Of a DNA stretch of 21,227 bases, positions 1 through 9,091 are shown piece after piece. Source of the stretch: a virus; IMG/VR virus record IMGVR_UViG_3300013004_000219, positions 1 to 21,227 of that record, one strand, 5' to 3'. The notes beneath the pieces were generated by a model. The model saw only the letters and a list, made by a program, of their open reading frames with translations, had not been told where the DNA came from and did no database searches. Both the position numbers and the translations under genes were made by a program. Every line of letters begins with the position of its first letter. The stretch's first letter is position 1.

Positions 1-355
1 CAACCGAAGCGGCACGATTCAATCTCATTTTGATTTTGTTCTTACCTCTTTCAGATTTGTAGCCTGAATATATGTCCTTTCTGCTTTGTGAACCCCCTTT
101 ACCATCGAATACTACGATTACTCTTGTAGGGTTTAGTGTACGGATGGCGTAGCCGATACTTTTTAAAGTACCGACTATTCCTCCAATATGGTCACCATTC
201 TCATTAAGATTAGGTGCGGTTGACCAAGAACGAATGAAGGTATTAAGACCATCAATTACTAAGGTTTTTGAATTACGATGTAAATCACCGAAACCTTTAT
301 GTTCTTCATCTATTTGTTTTAGTATATCTAAATACTTCTTATTAATCTGACTCAT
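1..355 (-). CDS. 5'-3' exonuclease, FEN/PIN-like (RNase H-like), 5' part only
   Basis: This is the N-terminal 118 codons of a gene that runs off the left edge. The frame starts at the ATG at 355 and overlaps the end of the recombinase gene by 14 bases. Seen: a FEN-type metal-site signature LVIDGLNTFIRSW (residues 32-44, Asp35) and VIVVFDGK (79-86, Asp84), followed by the basic SRKDIYSGYKSER segment (91-103). This spacing is typical of the N-terminal domain of phage and Pol I 5'-3' exonucleases such as T4 Rnh, which removes RNA primers and trims flaps during lagging-strand synthesis. Position after SSB and recombinase fits a replication/recombination operon. The catalytic acidic cluster further on and the helix-hairpin-helix region lie outside the window, so activity cannot be judged. 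The family call is fairly safe; the T4 Rnh equivalence is inferred. Confidence 0.82.
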   Translation of the reverse strand, partial: MSQINKKYLDILKQIDEEHKGFGDLHRNSKTLVIDGLNTFIRSWSTAPNLNENGDHIGGIVGTLKSIGYAIRTLNPTRVIVVFDGKGGSQSRKDIYSGYKSERGKNKIKMRLNRAASV

Positions 356-1454
356 TTGCTTCGTCCGTTGTAACTTCAACTTCTTCCGAATTGGAATTTG
401 TGTTTGATTTATATTGTAAAATTTGTGCCTCACATATTCTACGATATATTTGGTCTTTTAATTCATCACTCTCTAACATCTTAGGGAAATCTTTAGATTG
501 AAATTTCATAATCTCTCCCGTATCGATATCGGTATATTCATACCAAGCACCACCTTGCTTTACGATTTTTGAATCTTTCATAACCGCTAACCAACCTCCG
601 TAGTTATCAATACCTCTATCAAAGAAGATATCGAAATCTGCGTGTCGTAATGGTGGTCCCATACGATTTTTAATAACCTGTGTACGAACTTTGATACCAA
701 CGATTCTATCACCAACTTTAAGTTGACCCATACCCTTCAATCTCAATCTAACAGAAGCGTGAAATGCTAATGCTTTACCACCCGATGTTGTCCAAGGGTC
801 GCCAAACATTGCGTTCATCTTTTGTCTTAACTGATTTGTGAATATTAAAGCAATCGATTGTCTACCAATCATATTGGTAATCTTTCTCATTGCTTTGGAA
901 ATGATAATAGCTTTACCAGTCGCAAAACCATCTTTATCATAATCAGCTTCTAATTCTAATTTTGTTGATGCTGCTGCTACTGAATCTACTACGATTGTAA
1001 CTAATCTATCTTTATCACCCGTTCTTACTTTTTCAATAATTGTTTCACATGCTTCAAAGATACCTTCAACAGTATCAACTGAAACATATAGGAGTTTTGA
1101 AATATCTACCCCAATTGCCTCTAAAAATTCTCTACTAACTGCGGTTTCCGTATCAATCAATACTGCTACTCCACCTTTCTTTTGGGTTTCGGCAAGGAGA
1201 TGGGCGGAGAGCAGAGATTTTCCACTCTGCTCTAAACCCGTAATCTCAGTAATACGACCAACTGGCAATCCACCATAAGGACGATTGGAAATTGCTACAT
1301 CCAACATTGCGTTACCCGTAGATAACCAATCTTTAACATTTGTAGGGGCGTCGCCTCCTTCATCTGTCAGGAAGTATGCAATCTTACCATCCTTATTTTG
1401 TTTGTTTAGAGAATCGGCAAGTAAACTTGCTAAATCTTCTTCTCTTTTTGCCAT
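342..1454 (-). CDS. recA: RecA/UvsX-like strand-exchange recombinase
   Basis: This 370-aa ATP-dependent recombinase should form filaments on single-stranded DNA and drive homologous pairing in phage recombination-dependent replication and repair. Seen: Walker A GLEQSGKS (residues 73-80), the acidic IDTET segment (100-104) where RecA carries its DAEHA motif, Walker B LVTIVVDS (151-158), the FTNQLRQK segment leading into DNA-binding loop L2 (205-212) and the DPWTTSGGKAL motif (219-229). The C-terminal GGAWYEY resembles the GAWYSY of RecA. The tail is acidic and Asn/Ser/Glu rich (about 348-370), as in RecA and UvsX. Length is near that of bacterial RecA. It follows the SSB gene by 14 bases and overlaps the exonuclease gene, so the three are probably co-transcribed. 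The sequence reads closer to RecA than to T4 UvsX, but the neighbourhood is that of a T4-type uvsX. Confidence 0.95.
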   Translation of the reverse strand: MAKREEDLASLLADSLNKQNKDGKIAYFLTDEGGDAPTNVKDWLSTGNAMLDVAISNRPYGGLPVGRITEITGLEQSGKSLLSAHLLAETQKKGGVAVLIDTETAVSREFLEAIGVDISKLLYVSVDTVEGIFEACETIIEKVRTGDKDRLVTIVVDSVAAASTKLELEADYDKDGFATGKAIIISKAMRKITNMIGRQSIALIFTNQLRQKMNAMFGDPWTTSGGKALAFHASVRLRLKGMGQLKVGDRIVGIKVRTQVIKNRMGPPLRHADFDIFFDRGIDNYGGWLAVMKDSKIVKQGGAWYEYTDIDTGEIMKFQSKDFPKMLESDELKDQIYRRICEAQILQYKSNTNSNSEEVEVTTDEANESD

Positions 1455-1468
1455 TGTAACTGGTTTAA

Positions 1469-2326
1469 TTAGTTGTTAAATAAATCATCGAATGCCGATG
1501 CTACATCATCTTTTGGTTTTGGAGCTGCTTTAGGAGCTTCATCTTCCCAAGGTAAATCACCACTAATATCAGATGTTCCACCCAATCCAATTGATGATTG
1601 TGGTGCTACTTTAGCAGGTTGTGCTTTAGGAGCTTCCAATGCTTCGTTTACAGGGTTACCTGTTCCGTTTGCAGGTGCTGATGGATTTAACCAATTCTCT
1701 AATACACCTTTTAACTCATCATAAGATAATTCAGAATACAATTCCGTAATTTCTTTTTGAGATTCCAACATTTGTTGAACCTGAGCCGCATCATCTAAAA
1801 TTTTAGAAGTTGCAGGTTTAACTCTGATTGTAGTTGTTGGATAAGCTGCATTTGATTCTTCAGCCGATACTACTTCCAATACGATATCTCTACCAGAAGT
1901 TGGGTCAGTAATATCTCCGTAATCCGGGTCAGCGATGTAACCTAAGATGTCCTGATAAACAGTCTTACCGAATCCCCAAAACTTAACACCTTCGTTCTCC
2001 TTACCTCTTACGATAACGGGTGCAAATGTTCTTAATTTTGGCTCCATCTTCTTACCTGCTTTCCAATCATCAGTGTCTCCTGTGCGTTTTAACTTTTCAG
2101 CAAACTCTACGATAGGGTCAGGTCTTCCAAATGAAATTGGAGATAGATAAGTTTTGTTGTTAATATTGTAGTGAAAATACAATTCGATGAAAGGATTATC
2201 CTTATTGAATTTGTAAGGTACTAAACGGATTTGAGATTTTCCGTTTGCCGGTTTCCAAATTGAATCCGACTTCTTTGTGTTGTTTTGGAGAGAGCTAAAT
2301 CTCTTCAGTGCTAATGAAATGTCCAT
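1469..2326 (-). CDS. gp32-like single-stranded DNA-binding protein
   Basis: This 285-aa protein probably coats single-stranded DNA at replication forks and recombination intermediates and recruits partners through its acidic tail. Seen: a short N-terminal basic segment, a core rich in aromatic and basic residues (about 24-170, with IWKPANGKSQIRLVPYKF near its start) that fits an OB fold, a low-complexity Pro/Ala/Gly linker (about 213-265) and an acidic end, DDVASAFDDLFNN, as in phage and bacterial SSBs. The region contains no Cys/His cluster, so the zinc site of T4 gp32 seems absent. It is the first gene after a host-type promoter (box at 2427-2458) with a leader of about 95 nt, and is followed 14 bases later by the recombinase. 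Function is inferred from architecture and context. Confidence 0.82.
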   Translation of the reverse strand: MDISLALKRFSSLQNNTKKSDSIWKPANGKSQIRLVPYKFNKDNPFIELYFHYNINNKTYLSPISFGRPDPIVEFAEKLKRTGDTDDWKAGKKMEPKLRTFAPVIVRGKENEGVKFWGFGKTVYQDILGYIADPDYGDITDPTSGRDIVLEVVSAEESNAAYPTTTIRVKPATSKILDDAAQVQQMLESQKEITELYSELSYDELKGVLENWLNPSAPANGTGNPVNEALEAPKAQPAKVAPQSSIGLGGTSDISGDLPWEDEAPKAAPKPKDDVASAFDDLFNN

Positions 2327-2426: not shown

Positions 2427-2458
2427 CAAATATACGACTATTTTTTGGATTTTCCAAA
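2427..2458 (-). promoter_or_regulatory. Bacteroidota-type promoter for the SSB-recombinase-exonuclease operon
   Basis: On the minus strand TTTG (2455-2458) is followed after exactly 20 bases by TATATTTG (2427-2434). This matches the -33 TTTG / -7 TAnnTTTG consensus of the Bacteroidota housekeeping sigma factor. The -33 element directly follows the stop codon of the GHKL-nuclease gene. Transcription is expected to begin near 2423. Confidence 0.75.
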
Positions 2459-4024
2459 TTAAATAGCGAAGAATTGTAAAGAATTTACCCAAGCTATATC
2501 AATGTTTGAAATAGCTATGTTTATACCAAAAAATTCATTAAAATCCTTAATTTGTTGGTCAAATTGAGGGTTTTTTACTGGTGATACGAATATACCATTA
2601 TGGCACTTATAGTGAGCCATATATCGAACTAATTGGCCGGCTTCATCGCCTGCCCCCTTATCCTTCTTACCTTCGATAATCCATATAGGCTTATTCTCAT
2701 CTAAGTAATCATATATAACTCCATCAGGTGCACCAACTCCACATAGTGGTCTTATTTTAACTTGTTTATCGAAATCTTTTACACCATATGCTCTCTTAGT
2801 AGTATCATCGTTCTTTAATCTTTCAAAGAACTTATCCATATATTTGTTCTCTGAAATAGCAGGTGTTAAAGATGTACTTCTTTCATAAAAATCAATTTCA
2901 TCTAATTTATCATTTACTGCTTTTATGATTTGCTTATATCTCTTAGTTTTCTTAACACCACTTTTTAATGCAGTATAATCTAACCCTTCTTCTACTTCTA
3001 AAAGAATACCATGTCTTTCATTTCGAGAACTCTTTTTATCTAAATTCCATTCCAATATTTTACCTCTCATACCCAATGCAATACCACTAAATTCGTCGCC
3101 ATAACTCCAAGGAGAATTTGCATACTTCTTAGGGTCATATAACGCATCTTTTGTATTATTGAATGTTTCGGTTACTGTCAATGGATGCGGTTTATGCCAG
3201 CATGTAAGATATGCTCTAACATCAGGATATCCTTCAACTACCAATTGTAATTTATCTAAAATTGGAGAATTTTCTCCCAATCCATTTGTAGTATTTATGA
3301 TTCGCTCAGGATTAGACATCAATGGTTTATATGCAATACATTCATGTGACCAAAGAGTATTATTTGGTTTTGTATAATTAATGCTGATATTTAGGAACTC
3401 ATTTAATAATTGTGGATATGTTGATTCAATCTTAGAACAAAATTTATCAAAATCTTTTTTATCAGTCCAATTTCTAATCATTTCTGAGCAATTCTTTATC
3501 TTTATTAAAGTACCACTCTCATATTGAGGAAAATCAATTCCTGTATATTCATCTAATACAAATTCTAAATCTTCTCTTGCATCAGTATAATCATTGATTC
3601 TTAAAATGTATGCAGGATTGTTTTTTGTTTTAGTAATTATGTAATCCAACTCACCTAATGCAAACAATACTACTTTCATACCCATACCCATTCTTGATAA
3701 TCTAAGTTTACCAGCGTTTACACTTTTACCATAGTTAAATGCATCAGCGATAGAATGTATAGGTATACCAATTGAATTATCCAATATTTGAATAAAAGAG
3801 TTATCCCCATCGTAGTTTATTCTAACATCTACTCTGATAGGAGTTTTTGGTTTTTCATTTGGGATTGGATTATCTATTAATTCGCAAATTAATGTTTCCA
3901 AATCATGTCCAACCGCACCAATCTTTTTTGCGGCATCTACTGAAATACTTGGTTTAAATGTAACCAATTTAGTACTCATTGTTCTTTGTTTGTTTTTTAC
4001 AATTTTTAATTCAGGTGTAATCAT
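2459..4024 (-). CDS. GHKL (MORC-like) ATPase fused to a PD-(D/E)XK nuclease-like domain
   Basis: The 521-aa protein carries all four Bergerat-fold ATP-binding motifs: N-box CELIDN (47-52, Asn52 as Mg ligand), DNSIGI (82-87), the Gly lid LSRMGMGMK (109-117) and ESGTLIKI (169-176). A middle region with a Lys-rich loop (354-364) may be the S5-like transducer domain. The C-terminus shows a restriction-nuclease-like pattern: PDG with Asp434, IIEGKK with Glu451-X-Lys453, and QLVRY (464-468), the helix after the active site common in PD-(D/E)XK enzymes. Prokaryotic MORC/MutL-like ATPases linked to restriction systems share this general design. A second in-frame ATG at residue 16 could be the true start. 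It lies 21 bases after the glycosyltransferase gene and shares its promoter. Biological role is unknown: DNA discrimination, host DNA degradation and repair are all possible. Confidence 0.7.
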   Translation of the reverse strand: MITPELKIVKNKQRTMSTKLVTFKPSISVDAAKKIGAVGHDLETLICELIDNPIPNEKPKTPIRVDVRINYDGDNSFIQILDNSIGIPIHSIADAFNYGKSVNAGKLRLSRMGMGMKVVLFALGELDYIITKTKNNPAYILRINDYTDAREDLEFVLDEYTGIDFPQYESGTLIKIKNCSEMIRNWTDKKDFDKFCSKIESTYPQLLNEFLNISINYTKPNNTLWSHECIAYKPLMSNPERIINTTNGLGENSPILDKLQLVVEGYPDVRAYLTCWHKPHPLTVTETFNNTKDALYDPKKYANSPWSYGDEFSGIALGMRGKILEWNLDKKSSRNERHGILLEVEEGLDYTALKSGVKKTKRYKQIIKAVNDKLDEIDFYERSTSLTPAISENKYMDKFFERLKNDDTTKRAYGVKDFDKQVKIRPLCGVGAPDGVIYDYLDENKPIWIIEGKKDKGAGDEAGQLVRYMAHYKCHNGIFVSPVKNPQFDQQIKDFNEFFGINIAISNIDIAWVNSLQFFAI

Positions 4025-4045: not shown

Positions 4046-5377
4046 TTATCCAATCCACTCATATCCATTCTTAGTGAATTTAATCTCAGGAACCTCTCTT
4101 AGAGCGTTCCTATAAGTGTTCCATTTGATTCTAACTCCCCATCCCATATATTTTAAGATATCTTCTTTTGTAACGAATCCTTTGGTTTTAATGTGTTCTT
4201 TTATTTTACCCAATGATTCAGTATCACTCATTACTTTCAAATCAAATACATTCTCCCAGCTATTAAACCATTTGGCAATTCTTTCATTCCAAACCATATT
4301 CTTAGCCAATTCGGTTGTATCGTATGTAATTGGATTATCTAGCATCTCATTGAATTTTTTGATGAAATCTTCTCTACCATCATACAAATATGGATACGGG
4401 TCAGTTGCCACACTAACCATCTCAGGATAACATAAACCATTTGGAAGTAAATAAGGACATCCTACTGAAAAACCATCAGTTGTTGAAATACTCCAAGCTG
4501 AATATGTTTGGAATGTACCTACACCAAATTTAACTTTAGATAAAAAATTCATATACTCATCTCTGCCAGTTAATTTAACTCTCTCATTCCAAGGCCTGTC
4601 GATTTGTGCCAATGTAGTATATACTTTGAAATCTTGCCTTGTTTCCCAAATTTCATCAACACATTTTACAAACCATTCCCATCCGGTATAGCCTGCATCT
4701 CTATGATTAAAAATTACAGTCTTGTCCGTATAGTCAGATACATTACGGGGATTGACTCTATCAACTCCCAAATAATGGGGTTGGATGATATTTTGTAACT
4801 TATCCAATACATCTTGGTTATAATGTTTCGCTGCATGTTTAATTGTAAGTTGTTTTAACCAATCACTATTAACACCACATTCATCCATTTGTAGTAAACC
4901 TGCTACTGATGCATCCAACATATTTTTTGCATATGGAGCATTTTCAGGTACTTCGAACCAATGTGAGTATCCAATAATTTTTGGTGCTATGTTTGTATTA
5001 TTAAATATACAATTTGCTATTTGATTTGTATGTTCTGGTAAATGTGTATAAATGATATCCCAATCGTTTCTTTTCCAATCTATAATTTTCATAAATTGTG
5101 TCGAATCAAAATGAGTACGCATTTGATTGATATATGTAGGTAAGGCGTAAATCCTTTGCTCTACATTTGGAAAGTTTAATGATTTAACAAATTCAGGTAT
5201 AAGAATTGTAAAGTGAATTTTCCATCTTTCACTCATAAAAGGAATAACTCTACGAAGTACTTCTACTAATGAATCGGCTTCTAAGTTATCTCTGAATGTA
5301 TAATTTCCATAAATCAATATTTTATAATCATATTGCTCGGTTTCATACTTATCTACTAAAAATTTACTAATATCCAT
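4046..5377 (-). CDS. GT-B glycosyltransferase with C-terminal winged-helix-like tail, possible DNA glucosyltransferase
   Basis: This 443-aa protein looks like a GT-B (GT4-like) glycosyltransferase. The N-terminal lobe begins with YDYKILIYGNY (16-26). The C-terminal lobe begins near VIFNHRDAGYTGWEWF (221-236) and contains LTGRDEYMNFLSKVKFGVG (269-287) and SAWSISTTDGFSVGCPYL (293-310), the latter where retaining enzymes hold the sugar-nucleotide donor. Residues about 386-443 form a separate module, with TKEDILKYMGWG (403-414) and a closing FTKNGYEWIG, that looks like a winged helix and could bind DNA. Neighbours are an Nmad1 protein upstream and a GHKL-nuclease downstream. A DNA-base sugar substrate is therefore plausible, but a cell-surface or other acceptor cannot be excluded. 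Its promoter at 5382-5413 predicts an almost leaderless mRNA. Confidence 0.72.
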   Translation of the reverse strand: MDISKFLVDKYETEQYDYKILIYGNYTFRDNLEADSLVEVLRRVIPFMSERWKIHFTILIPEFVKSLNFPNVEQRIYALPTYINQMRTHFDSTQFMKIIDWKRNDWDIIYTHLPEHTNQIANCIFNNTNIAPKIIGYSHWFEVPENAPYAKNMLDASVAGLLQMDECGVNSDWLKQLTIKHAAKHYNQDVLDKLQNIIQPHYLGVDRVNPRNVSDYTDKTVIFNHRDAGYTGWEWFVKCVDEIWETRQDFKVYTTLAQIDRPWNERVKLTGRDEYMNFLSKVKFGVGTFQTYSAWSISTTDGFSVGCPYLLPNGLCYPEMVSVATDPYPYLYDGREDFIKKFNEMLDNPITYDTTELAKNMVWNERIAKWFNSWENVFDLKVMSDTESLGKIKEHIKTKGFVTKEDILKYMGWGVRIKWNTYRNALREVPEIKFTKNGYEWIG

Positions 5378-5381
5378 ATTA

Positions 5382-5413
5382 CAAATATAACACTTATTTT
5401 TGACAATTCCAAA
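5382..5413 (-). promoter_or_regulatory. Bacteroidota-type promoter for the glycosyltransferase/GHKL-nuclease operon
   Basis: On the minus strand TTTG (5410-5413) lies 20 bases before TATATTTG (5382-5389). Only 4 bases separate the -7 box from the ATG at 5377, so the transcript should have almost no leader. The -33 box directly follows the stop codon of the upstream Nmad1 gene. Confidence 0.75.
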
Positions 5414-5764
5414 TTATTTTGCCCATTTTCCTCTATTCACCAATTGTGAAATAACAGAATATACTGCAAGGTCTTGGTAAGTATCTTCAATCGATTCACC
5501 TACTTCATCCGGCTGACCTAATACAACCATTTGTTTTAATCTATTAATTTTATCGTTCTTTCTAAACCATAATCCACTCAAAGATAATTTAATATCTTCT
5601 TTAGTAGCCAATGGTGTTCCTACTGAAATATTACCAGGTCCGTAGTTTCTTTGTTTCTTACAAAATGTGGTATACATTTCATCTAAAATGTTCTTAAACT
5701 CTTCACAGGTTTGAGGATAGGTTTCTTCGCAATATTGAATTGCACTCATTTCTTCTTTATTCAT
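5414..5764 (-). CDS. DUF1599/Nmad1-like nucleotide modification associated protein
   Basis: This 116-aa protein is predicted to be mostly helical. It fits the DUF1599 pattern (nucleotide modification associated domain 1): an N-terminal helix ending in FCKKQRNYGPGN (34-45), a central KEDIKLSLSGLWFRKNDKI (about 55-73) and the acidic GESIEDTYQDLAVYSVI (about 89-105). Members are found in phages next to genes for modified bases or nucleotides. The acidic helix recalls all-alpha NTP pyrophosphatases, so a nucleotide-handling role such as clearing or providing a modified dNTP pool is reasonable. No reaction is established for this member. The gene lies 9 bases after the 100-aa ORF, with two in-frame stops between, and shares the AAATAAGTTATG start junction with two other genes. 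Confidence 0.68.
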   Translation of the reverse strand: MNKEEMSAIQYCEETYPQTCEEFKNILDEMYTTFCKKQRNYGPGNISVGTPLATKEDIKLSLSGLWFRKNDKINRLKQMVVLGQPDEVGESIEDTYQDLAVYSVISQLVNRGKWAK

Positions 5765-6534: not shown

Positions 6535-6929
6535 TTTTCCGTATTAAAACTTTTGAAAACTTTAGTTGGTATTTTTTTATATCCTATATTCGATGTAGTC
6601 AATATGCAATTTCTGAATTCTTCCCAATCAATTATATAAGAATTATCCAATTGTCCGCCTGTTTTTGATTTAACTACTTCGTTAAGAGCGTTAATAGTGT
6701 ATATTGTATTCGATTGTTTCTTTCTATGTACTAATATTGTTTTCCATTCGGAATCAATAGCAGATGAACCTTTCTCCACATTAAAAGTAATGAAGGCTTC
6801 TTCAGGTCTTAGTTTACTTTCTAAGATGAAAACATTTGGGTTTGTTAGTATGTAACTTCTTAATATAAAGCTAACCGATTTTTCTAACTCTTCCTTTGTC
6901 GTAAATAGGCAAAGTAGTTGTGTGTTCAT
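6522..6929 (-). CDS. Hypothetical protein, 135 aa
   Basis: This is an uncharacterised protein with an even, globular composition. It begins MNTQLLCLFTTKEELEKSV. It has a middle segment SEWKTILVHRKKQSNTIYTI (about 59-78) and a C-terminal half with DWEEFRNCIL (about 101-110) and a basic end KKIPTKVFKSF. No catalytic motif, signal peptide or membrane helix is apparent. Its start codon overlaps the stop codon of the 720-aa gene (TAATG at 6927-6931), so translation is probably coupled to that protein. I have an impression of similar small proteins beside structural genes in T4-like phages, but I cannot name the family. Confidence 0.75.
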   Translation of the reverse strand: MNTQLLCLFTTKEELEKSVSFILRSYILTNPNVFILESKLRPEEAFITFNVEKGSSAIDSEWKTILVHRKKQSNTIYTINALNEVVKSKTGGQLDNSYIIDWEEFRNCILTTSNIGYKKIPTKVFKSFNTENLEK

Positions 6930-9091
6930 TATGCTAATCCATTTTTTCGTTTAAAACATTCAATCGTGTCCTTATCCCATTTATAAACGGTGTTAAATCT
7001 ACCATTTGCACCGGTTTTACTTCTCTGTCTTTTTTCTCCAATTTTAATTTTTTGCTTTTTATCATTTAAGAAATATGCAATTCTAACAGAACCTGTAATT
7101 TGATTTTCTTTTGATAATTGAAACTCTTCTTTTGTAGAACCAAACTTTCTAATAAAATCATCCATATTATTTGTATTCATACATTGTGAAATAATATCAT
7201 TATTAATGACACCTTTACCACATACAACTTCAAATAAACCATTATATGCAAATACACCGTGCTTATCACCCATTGCACCTCCCATATGGAATTTATCTAT
7301 AAAGTTCGTAGCATCCATATAATCTCCCAATCCAACTTTACCACCTTTGATTCCTATTTGTATGTTGTTCATCTTGTTCAATACTTTTCTTTCAATTGCT
7401 ACTGAACGCTTTCTGATATCATCAATTTTTTGTGCAACCAATGGGTCTAGTCCAAATCTACTTTTTAATCTTGCAATTATCTCAGCTTCTTTACTTGTAA
7501 ATGTAGTTTTTGGAGAACCTGCTTTTGTTACATATGCAGTTTGCTCTTCAGGAGACATTGATGAAAATTTTAAAAATTGAGTTACTGCTTCAGCCGGAGT
7601 TTCTGCGTTAAATGGCTTACCCATATATTTTTTAATAACCCCATCATAATATGCTTGAGGATTAGCACCACCACTTAAAGTTTTAAATTGATTTATAACA
7701 TCTTTAACTGGCATTTTTAACATTTTTTTAGCAGGTTCAGCTCCAACTGATTTTAGTTCAGCTTCTATTGCATTTAATGTTTTTGTTTGCGTATCTATAA
7801 AAGTTTTTATTTTTTCAGCATCTGCTTTTTTCATTTTACCCGTCTGAACCAACTTATCAATTTGGTCTTTCTTTATACTACCTTCTTTTTGAAATGATGA
7901 TTGTGCAACAATTGCTTCAAATGAATCTTTATCTGATGTGAATTTAATCATTAAATCACCAGTCTTTGAATTATATGCAAATTGAGAAGTATCTGATGGG
8001 TTTGCGCCACCACCGCCTGCTGCAACTAATTGTAATGCAATATTTTTTGGTATTTCAGTTCCATCTGGTCCGAATATTTTATTAGATTGCCTAACCATAT
8101 CGGCTTGTTGGGATTTACCACCTTCATCTCCAAAAAAACCATTTATTGTACAATCTTCTTCTTTCCAACCATTTGCTTGTATTCCTTCTTTTATCTTCTT
8201 AGCTTTAATTAATCCACCATTGGCTGCAACCATTAATCTAGATAATTGTCCATCGGATAATTTATCAAACTTACCTTTACCTGATGCTTTAAACTCTCTT
8301 AATTCTTTAGCTGATATACTTGGTACTTTATCTTGCTGTCCGGCAATTCCTCTCTTATCTGCGGCTTCTAATAACGAACCACCTTTTAAGTTATCGTATA
8401 AGTGTGAAACGGCTGATACTAAATCGGTTTTATCGTTCTCCAATGCCCACTCACATACATCACATGAACCATTTTCATTTAACATTGAACCAGCGTTACC
8501 TGGTGCTGCTCCTGCATCTTCTTCGCTTTCGGATTTATGATATCCTTTAGAATAAAATGAATCTCTACTTTGACCTGCTTGAATACTAATTCTATCTATT
8601 TCAGATTTTATTTTAGTTAGATTTTTTATTTTACTTGAGCCATCTCCATCATTTGATTGTGTATCATTTCCAGGAAATACATTTGCACCACCACCACTTA
8701 CACCAAATGTATTTGGTCCTTGCTGAGCTGGAATTTCTTCTGGTTCTTCGTTTCCAAATGTACCATTCGATTTTGCTTTCTTTATTTGAGCAGTAGTTGC
8801 TTTATCGTGCACCGATGCATTAAAGTTTGAAGTTTTTACAGGATATACTGAACCACTCTTTTTATTAACAACAATGGTAGTATCGTTTCCTACAATTTTT
8901 TTAGGTTTAGCTTCATTTAAATATGAAAAATACACTCTAGCTTTTTGAGCAAGATGTGCTGCATCTGAAATGCCATTCTCTCTCAGTATATCAATCAATT
9001 GATTAACATGAGATTCTTTAGTTAAATCTGGTATACCACCCTCTACTCTATAACTTAACTCCGATAAGATTTCTTTAAAATTTGGAATCAT
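6929..9091 (-). CDS. Large hypothetical protein, 720 aa, probably virion-associated
   Basis: No family is recognised with confidence. Residues 1-60 (FKEILSELSYRVEGGIPDL, then a helix ending near FSYLNEAK) look like a compact helical domain. Residues 65-205 are low complexity, rich in Gly, Asn, Ser and acidic residues. A CDVC pair lies at 210-213. The middle contains GGGGAN and a beta-rich segment around SKTGDLMIKFTSDKDSFE, a pattern I associate loosely with large virion proteins of T4-like marine phages. The remainder is helical and Lys-rich, with a basic end. It follows the 274-aa gene by 4 bases and is coupled to the 135-aa gene. The candidate late promoter upstream of the 274-aa gene suggests late expression. 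A structural or injected role is inferred, not shown. Confidence 0.6.
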   Translation of the reverse strand: MIPNFKEILSELSYRVEGGIPDLTKESHVNQLIDILRENGISDAAHLAQKARVYFSYLNEAKPKKIVGNDTTIVVNKKSGSVYPVKTSNFNASVHDKATTAQIKKAKSNGTFGNEEPEEIPAQQGPNTFGVSGGGANVFPGNDTQSNDGDGSSKIKNLTKIKSEIDRISIQAGQSRDSFYSKGYHKSESEEDAGAAPGNAGSMLNENGSCDVCEWALENDKTDLVSAVSHLYDNLKGGSLLEAADKRGIAGQQDKVPSISAKELREFKASGKGKFDKLSDGQLSRLMVAANGGLIKAKKIKEGIQANGWKEEDCTINGFFGDEGGKSQQADMVRQSNKIFGPDGTEIPKNIALQLVAAGGGGANPSDTSQFAYNSKTGDLMIKFTSDKDSFEAIVAQSSFQKEGSIKKDQIDKLVQTGKMKKADAEKIKTFIDTQTKTLNAIEAELKSVGAEPAKKMLKMPVKDVINQFKTLSGGANPQAYYDGVIKKYMGKPFNAETPAEAVTQFLKFSSMSPEEQTAYVTKAGSPKTTFTSKEAEIIARLKSRFGLDPLVAQKIDDIRKRSVAIERKVLNKMNNIQIGIKGGKVGLGDYMDATNFIDKFHMGGAMGDKHGVFAYNGLFEVVCGKGVINNDIISQCMNTNNMDDFIRKFGSTKEEFQLSKENQITGSVRIAYFLNDKKQKIKIGEKRQRSKTGANGRFNTVYKWDKDTIECFKRKNGLA

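Follow-up and report, generated by a model that had tools for sequence, protein, structure and literature searches.

A gene for an ATPase fused to a nuclease, lying directly upstream of the replication genes of a tailed phage, raises the question of what its product is and on which DNA it would act. The window, i.e. the whole stretch of DNA analysed, is a virus record of 21,227 bases from an uncultured T4-like freshwater phage. The T4-like landmarks UvsX, gp32 and a DNA polymerase A-type protein were identified in it with Pfam and PHROGs, and the isolated phage nearest to it by UvsX is Microcystis phage Mel-JY01 (54%). An earlier note had described at 2459-4024 a GHKL ATPase joined to a PD-(D/E)XK nuclease in a phage replication/modification region. 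The open reading frame is real and intact over 521 codons on the minus strand, a strand which that note had left out, and the plus strand is closed by many stops. The replication/modification setting is supported as well. All features discussed below are listed in Table 1. Elsewhere in the window, positions 6929-9091 encode an unannotated 720-aa protein that is strongly mosaic among close relatives (24-92% identity); its version in the relative L001 carries an HNH-like stretch, LDHHIPYSNAG.

Table 1. Position, strand and supporting evidence of the features of the window
Feature	Position	Strand	Evidence
Predicted GHKL-S5 ATPase + PD-(D/E)XK nuclease, 521 aa	2459..4024	minus	ORF, Pfam, conservation, fold, NucS match
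Domain split of the same protein: ATPase/transducer, residues 26-384; nuclease, about 390-510			
GHKL ATP-site motifs, E48 (N-box) to T172 (G3)	3509..3883	minus	near-invariant in 37 members
Predicted nuclease active-site stretch E392...D434...E451-x-K453...Q464...Y468	2621..2851	minus	conservation, NucS profile
Predicted GT-B glycosyltransferase (GT), 443 aa, winged-helix-like tail about 385-443	4046..5377	minus	Foldseek, Pfam of homologues
Putative Bacteroidota-type promoter TTTG-N20-TATATTTG, ahead of the genes for GT and GHKL-nuclease	5382..5413	minus	consensus from PMC6847099
Similar promoter repeat, immediately behind the stop codon of the GHKL-nuclease, upstream of gp32	2427..2458	minus	
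DUF1599 / nucleotide-modification-associated domain 1 protein, upstream insert boundary	5414..5764	minus	Pfam PF07659 E 7e-5
gp32-like single-strand DNA binding protein, downstream insert boundary	1469..2326	minus	Pfam gp32 E 1.6e-16
UvsX/RecA recombinase, adjoins gp32	342..1454	minus	Pfam RecA E 1.5e-60, PHROG UvsX

The 521-aa protein had no match in PHROGs or PADLOC, and a single-sequence, profile-free scan of genome contigs with it gave no match either, so that an alignment query was needed. Relatives were gathered by a chain of searches leading from a Priestia plasmid protein to the viral contig L010 and on to the fecal phage contig L123. The last step of the chain yielded 42 loci in bacterial and archaeal genomes, and most relatives are full-length with the same two-part build. 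The ATPase motifs and the nuclease catalytic residues are kept across bacteria, archaea and phages. All four Bergerat ATP-site motifs pointed out in the earlier note are present, namely ELIDN (48-52), DNSIGI (82-87), GMGMK (113-117) and SGT (170-172), the first glycine of the usual DxGxG being a serine here. In an alignment of 37 members, E48 is found in 35 rows, D82, G86 and T172 in 36 each, and G113, G115, K117 and the S5 lysine K354 in all 37. Pfam HATPase_c_3 matches residues 42-139 (E 9e-8). The AlphaFold2 model calculated from the same 37-row alignment has a mean pLDDT of 78 and is good over residues 26-384, which superpose on SMCHD1 (Z 24.2) and on MORC3 (Z 23.9, 295 residues, 2.8 A). 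A structure search with the whole model listed GHKL-S5 proteins only, because this one domain fills the list. That residues 26-384 form a MORC/SMCHD1-like GHKL-S5 module is thus well supported. The MORC S5 motif GhXhhpXXRhl reads G314...K322-I-L in the window protein, with a lysine at the position where 33 of the 37 members have the arginine, the rest of the motif being judged by eye.

The pattern D...ExK...QxxxY noticed previously near the C-terminus is no chance resemblance: among 30 aligned C-terminal regions, D434 is conserved in 30, E451 in 29, K453 in 30, Q464 in 29 and Y468 in 28, and the homologues have thus not lost Glu451 or Lys453, a loss that would have spoken against a nuclease. 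An additional upstream residue, E392, is kept in 27 of the 30. Compared with the PDB, the profile of these 30 rows matched NucS (2vld, E 4.3e-7), EndoMS (5gke, 1.3e-3) and Cas4 (0.013), and individual family members matched Pfam NucS_C, Cas4, HSDR_N_2 and PDDEXK_9. The model is poorer here, with residues 424-438 below pLDDT 50, and because of this weak segment the strand bearing D434 is absent from it. The two-part fold expected for the protein is therefore seen in the model for the ATPase part and by sequence profile for the restriction-fold part, which is weak in the model. In the full-length MAFFT alignment the catalytic Asp column falls on D439, and on D434 in the C-terminal-only alignment, the phage-only alignment and pairwise BLAST; D434 is the preferred candidate. 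A NucS-like PD-(D/E)XK endonuclease domain is well supported by these profiles, and the proposed fusion of a GHKL ATPase to a PD-(D/E)XK nuclease holds by motifs, fold and NucS profile. Its nuclease domain is homologous to the NucS C-terminus; it differs from NucS/EndoMS in that the N-terminal DNA-binding domain of NucS is not present, its place being taken by GHKL-S5.

This architecture is itself already known. Iyer, Abhiman and Aravind described in 2008 the paraMORC3 proteins, in which GHKL and S5 are followed at the C-terminus by a restriction-fold nuclease bearing E-D-ExK; they occur sporadically among bacteria and archaea, a subset of them standing alone without conserved neighbours (PMC2292703). 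The window protein has the GHKL motifs, the S5 domain with K354 and the restriction-fold domain with E-D-ExK, and from its sequence we assign it as a phage-encoded protein of paraMORC3 type. It differs in being phage-encoded and GT-linked, and its identity is about 26% or less to all but near-identical copies. VcSduA, a GHKL Shedu of type I-D, shares the N-terminal GHKL ATPase and C-terminal PD-(D/E)XK nuclease in a single gene; it is anti-phage, and mutations of its ATPase and of its nuclease each abolish defence (PMC12137116). Its nuclease, unlike that of the window protein, is SduA_C/DUF4263. Shedu membership was rejected: none of the 37 members matches PF14082 at E 0.05, and the family HMM, even with E values of up to 10 allowed, did not recover the GHKL-SduA_C protein L189. 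Aligned by profile with Shedu nucleases, the family reached an hhalign probability of only 46%, though the catalytic residues align. T4 rIIA is also a phage GHKL ATPase with an extra C-terminal part (PMC7824862); kinship with it is unsupported, the family profile giving no HMMER match and hhalign 17.8% over 76 columns. Membership in MZA was likewise discarded, NCBIfam giving weak GHKL matches only (such as MzaB, E 5e-4, cut-off 850 bits). The GHKL proteins of MT836521 and Marinobacter sit in Dcm/Vsr restriction clusters, in MT836521 also with Z1, DUF4420 and AIPR; they are not the closest kin because they have no C-terminal nuclease match.

The genomic position was surveyed on 80 relatives collected via UvsX, in which the order polymerase, small genes, DUF1599, gp32 and UvsX recurs. 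In 42 relatives lacking the GT, the DUF1599-gp32 junction is empty and measures 128-176 bp, and 3 further GT-less relatives hold small unrelated inserts there; the GT-GHKL insert is absent in all 45 GT-less relatives with a readable junction. In L001, which bears both GT and GHKL-nuclease, DUF1599 and gp32 are 3087 bp apart. In both L001 and the window this gap consists of two genes, the 443-aa GT and the GHKL-nuclease, and the window retains about 132 bp ahead of gp32, the length of an empty junction. By this sequence comparison, the GT and the GHKL-nuclease form a two-gene cassette inserted together between DUF1599 and gp32. The region has a second insertion spot between gp32 and UvsX, occupied in L019 (2-430) and L020 (2409-3008) by a homing-endonuclease-like gene.

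The cassette is bracketed by similar promoter sequences, one before the GT and one after the GHKL-nuclease stop, and these repeats may be a route of cassette exchange. Promoters of the Bacteroidota type, with a consensus taken from PMC6847099 and the form TTTG-N17-21-TANNTTTG, number 5 in the window against 1.4 expected from shuffling, and 4 of the 5 precede genes on the coding strand. Because of this excess and this placement, the host of the phage is likely a member of the Bacteroidota. The -7 element of the promoter before the GT ends only 4 nt ahead of the start codon, for which reason the GT may lack a leader or have its true start further downstream.

The best Foldseek matches of the GT are MshA, BshA and the glycosyltransferase of phage HY126, with a model pLDDT of only 61; its homologue in L124 matches Glyco_transf_4 and that in L238 matches Glycos_transf_1. 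These best fold matches include small-molecule transferases. A GT-B fold is thus predicted, from a weak model. Its C-terminal tail has a weak winged-helix likeness (TFIIE_beta E 0.079). Since both the model and the tail match are weak, it is from the neighbouring genes that we infer an action of the GT on DNA. Thymidylate-synthase homologues, a sign of hydroxymethyl-base precursor synthesis, were present in no more than 1 of the 14 records searched.

The gene beside the GT proved to be exchangeable. At DUF1599-gp32 the slot can be seen in six contigs that have the GT, and all six hold either the GHKL-nuclease or a GmrSD_N/DGQHR-HNH protein. In L090-L092, the GT shares 98-99% identity with the window GT and the GHKL position is taken by a protein of 551-581 aa that carries a DGKHR motif and looks HNH-like at its end; L011, with a UvsX 96% identical, likewise has this slot type. 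These DGKHR proteins are linked by hhalign (90%) to a slot family including L221 (GmrSD_N E 3e-9, weak HNH). Relatives of the type IV enzymes GmrSD/BrxU/GrwAB thus occupy the slot beside the GT in sibling phages (L221); they are a separate protein family, not homologous to the GHKL-nuclease. The earlier note had described the gene and had missed what we regard as the strongest clue, its co-arrival with the GT and the nuclease exchange beside it. The same clue bears on a role in repair or recombination, in which a fused MutL-like ATPase and NucS/EndoMS-like nuclease would treat mismatches or branched DNA together with gp32 and UvsX. The gene is directly upstream of these two, its nuclease is nearest to NucS/EndoMS, and the MutL scheme does combine GHKL with a nuclease (PMC2292703). 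We nevertheless give repair the smallest likelihood of the readings considered here: the gene is missing from the 45 GT-less relatives at this junction, close relatives carry GmrSD_N/DGQHR-HNH instead, no MutS was seen, and the DNA-binding domain of NucS is lacking.

Two other arrangements of GT and slot were found. In one, the GT lies ahead of DNA polymerase B, and GIY-YIG or GmrSD_N/DGQHR proteins come after it, the GIY-YIG ones matching the homing endonuclease phrog_314 (E 2e-12). In the other, the order is DruA, slot, GT and HD protein. Tallied by hand, with contigs and not independent events as the unit, about 21 of some 48 contigs have no gene in the latter slot, which is otherwise filled by GmrSD_N/DGQQR (7), the GHKL-nuclease (4), a family of 605-691 aa (7) or, more rarely, ParB-like proteins (2), a DPPY methyltransferase (1) and other genes. 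Because many of these DruA-GT-HD loci have no slot gene, the GT needs no nuclease partner. Members of the 605-691 aa family (L213, L245, L246, L254, L258, L259 and L262) have no Pfam or PHROG match; by eye, an HNH-like DGH...G pattern lies at their end.

From these comparisons, the slot adjoining the GT is hypervariable for predicted restriction-type nucleases. It might alternatively be an insertion hot spot, in which a homing-endonuclease-like selfish nuclease spreads into nuclease-free siblings with the GT as co-transferred cargo. The GIY-YIG and HNH proteins in the slot and the similar promoter repeats around the cassette fit such an origin, as does the knowledge that phage nuclease genes mark exchange boundaries beside replication genes (PMC10448857). 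It is nonetheless improbable in our view, as GHKL-PD(D/E)XK, GmrSD_N-HNH, ParB-like and DPPY methyltransferase proteins are restriction-type and untypical of homing families, and the GT stays with the nuclease at different genomic places.

It was the window and L124 that first hinted at the pairing of GT and nuclease, which a scan for the GT and a separate GHKL scan then served to check. L124 and L125 have the two genes in another genomic place than the window, downstream of a Mom pair: their GHKL-nuclease shares 26% identity with the window protein (E 2e-36), and the gene after it encodes a homologue of the window GT (29%, E 1e-39). In L124 the GHKL stop overlaps the GT start, and DNA polymerase B lies downstream of the two genes. 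The two genes are neighbours again in L243/L249 and in L226/L263, where a TET-associated glycosyltransferase (TAGT, PF20691, E 1e-18) lies between them. An independent scan with the phage GHKL-nucleases alone recovered 8 contigs, all 8 GT-linked. The GT-linked GHKL-nucleases form one clade, with support 95/97 including the longest branch and 100/98 without it. Their dN/dS is about 0.05 between L124 and L125 (dN 0.009, dS 0.178) and about 0.27 for L243/L249, values indicating purifying selection. A candidate modification gene and a nuclease gene are thus inherited together: they share one insertion between DUF1599 and gp32 and neighbour each other again in three more lineages of phages. Within L226 (4609-6198), the N-box (KEIVNN) and G1 (DDMTGW) are degenerate and the nuclease residues intact, so this member is possibly ATP-independent.

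This linkage is what weighs on the reading of the protein as a stand-alone anti-competitor nuclease, similar to Shedu I-D/VcSduA, carried as phage cargo independently of a GT that would be a mere neighbour, and recognising invading DNA by some feature, for instance its ends or its replication intermediates. VcSduA does act alone (PMC12137116), the GT is frequent without a slot gene, and the cellular relatives, mostly lone genes with few near R-M genes, have no constant partner: among 115 neighbours, 4 match a type IV restriction model and 2 a type II methylase. Yet all phage-clade GHKL-nucleases found adjoin the GT or are one gene away from it, in several gene orders, a linkage which hitchhiking does not readily yield. 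The other viral and cellular members tested are without a GT; for those outside the phage GT clade (L010, L123, L126-L128, L006, L143 and L144), no GT, Mom or DruA homologue was found within the fetched stretch. We consider a stand-alone role unlikely. The GHKL-nuclease gene of L010 (2538-4043, on a phage contig) is flanked by two serine recombinase genes, which suggests that it is cargo of an integrative element.

Further modification genes accompany the GT. Mom genes in tandem (PF25680, E as low as 1e-47) adjoin it in L095, L100/L201 and L101/L202 and are near it in L124. Mom was not found within the window, and 5 long contigs of its phage group, without a GT at gp32, hold 1-2 copies. Mom pairs were located in L095 (1096-2935), in the L124 contig (1176-2601) and in records G003, G004, G011, G012 and G014; they lie downstream of UvsX in relatives of the window, whereas other phages have them immediately ahead of GT and DNA polymerase B. 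The TAGT family (PF20691) includes an enzyme thought to attach the second glucose to T6 DNA (PMC13390438). The islands of GT and slot also contain Mom, DruA, TAGT and DNA polymerase genes. DruA-like proteins are regular GT neighbours, as in L105 (653-1846, PF14236 E 5e-22), L096 (3755-4978) and L124 (9169-10374); DruA is a defence-named protein (Druantia), here in a phage replication/modification region.

The explanation that we prefer, and to which we give about an even chance, is that the GT, perhaps with Mom, marks the phage DNA and that an ATP-gated nuclease attacks host or rival DNA marked differently. The GT, possibly atop a Mom-type acylation, would place a self mark on phage DNA. By analogy with MORC and VcSduA, ATP binding would close the GHKL dimer on DNA, and the closed dimer would license the C-terminal nuclease, whose cutting would be metal-dependent as in NucS and restriction folds. 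The target would be DNA with no self mark or a wrong one, whether host chromosome or competing phage, and the nucleases rotating beside one GT would be swappable weapons under the same or a similar immunity mark. It is from this gene context that we infer both the coupling of marking to cutting and the substrate of the GT. Weighing against mark-then-cut are the slotless GT loci, the homing-like GIY-YIG genes, the degenerate GHKL of L226/L263, the weak GT model with its small-molecule transferase matches and the failure to find Mom in the window. A comparable logic has been read in jumbo phages, where Mom fused to restriction-fold nucleases is predicted to protect self and attack other (PMC7824862). 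Phage-borne base modification and a restriction-fold nuclease are again combined for predicted self-protection and attack on host or rival DNA, on one polypeptide there and in separate genes here (Mom pair, GT and interchangeable nuclease).

In the searchable literature, two things appear to be undescribed and new: a phage paraMORC3 clade tied to a GT, and the rotating nuclease slot beside that GT. In its broader form, which we hold at somewhat less than an even chance, the proposal is of a modular R-M-like weapon, borne by tailed phages that infect aquatic bacteria, with a constant modification core and one interchangeable nuclease cassette. The core would be the Mom pair, the GT and sometimes TAGT, the MORC-like ATPase-nuclease would be one type of cassette, and the weapon would serve to destroy host or rival phage DNA lacking the right mark. 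If this is true, hypermodification of phage bases would be both a shield and the component that gives immunity within an exchangeable weapon system, whose nucleases would be of the restriction-type kinds known from bacterial defence. The two-gene system would then offer a small, concrete case for the control of a nuclease by a MORC-type ATPase, and would bear on how self is distinguished from non-self DNA in phage-phage conflict.
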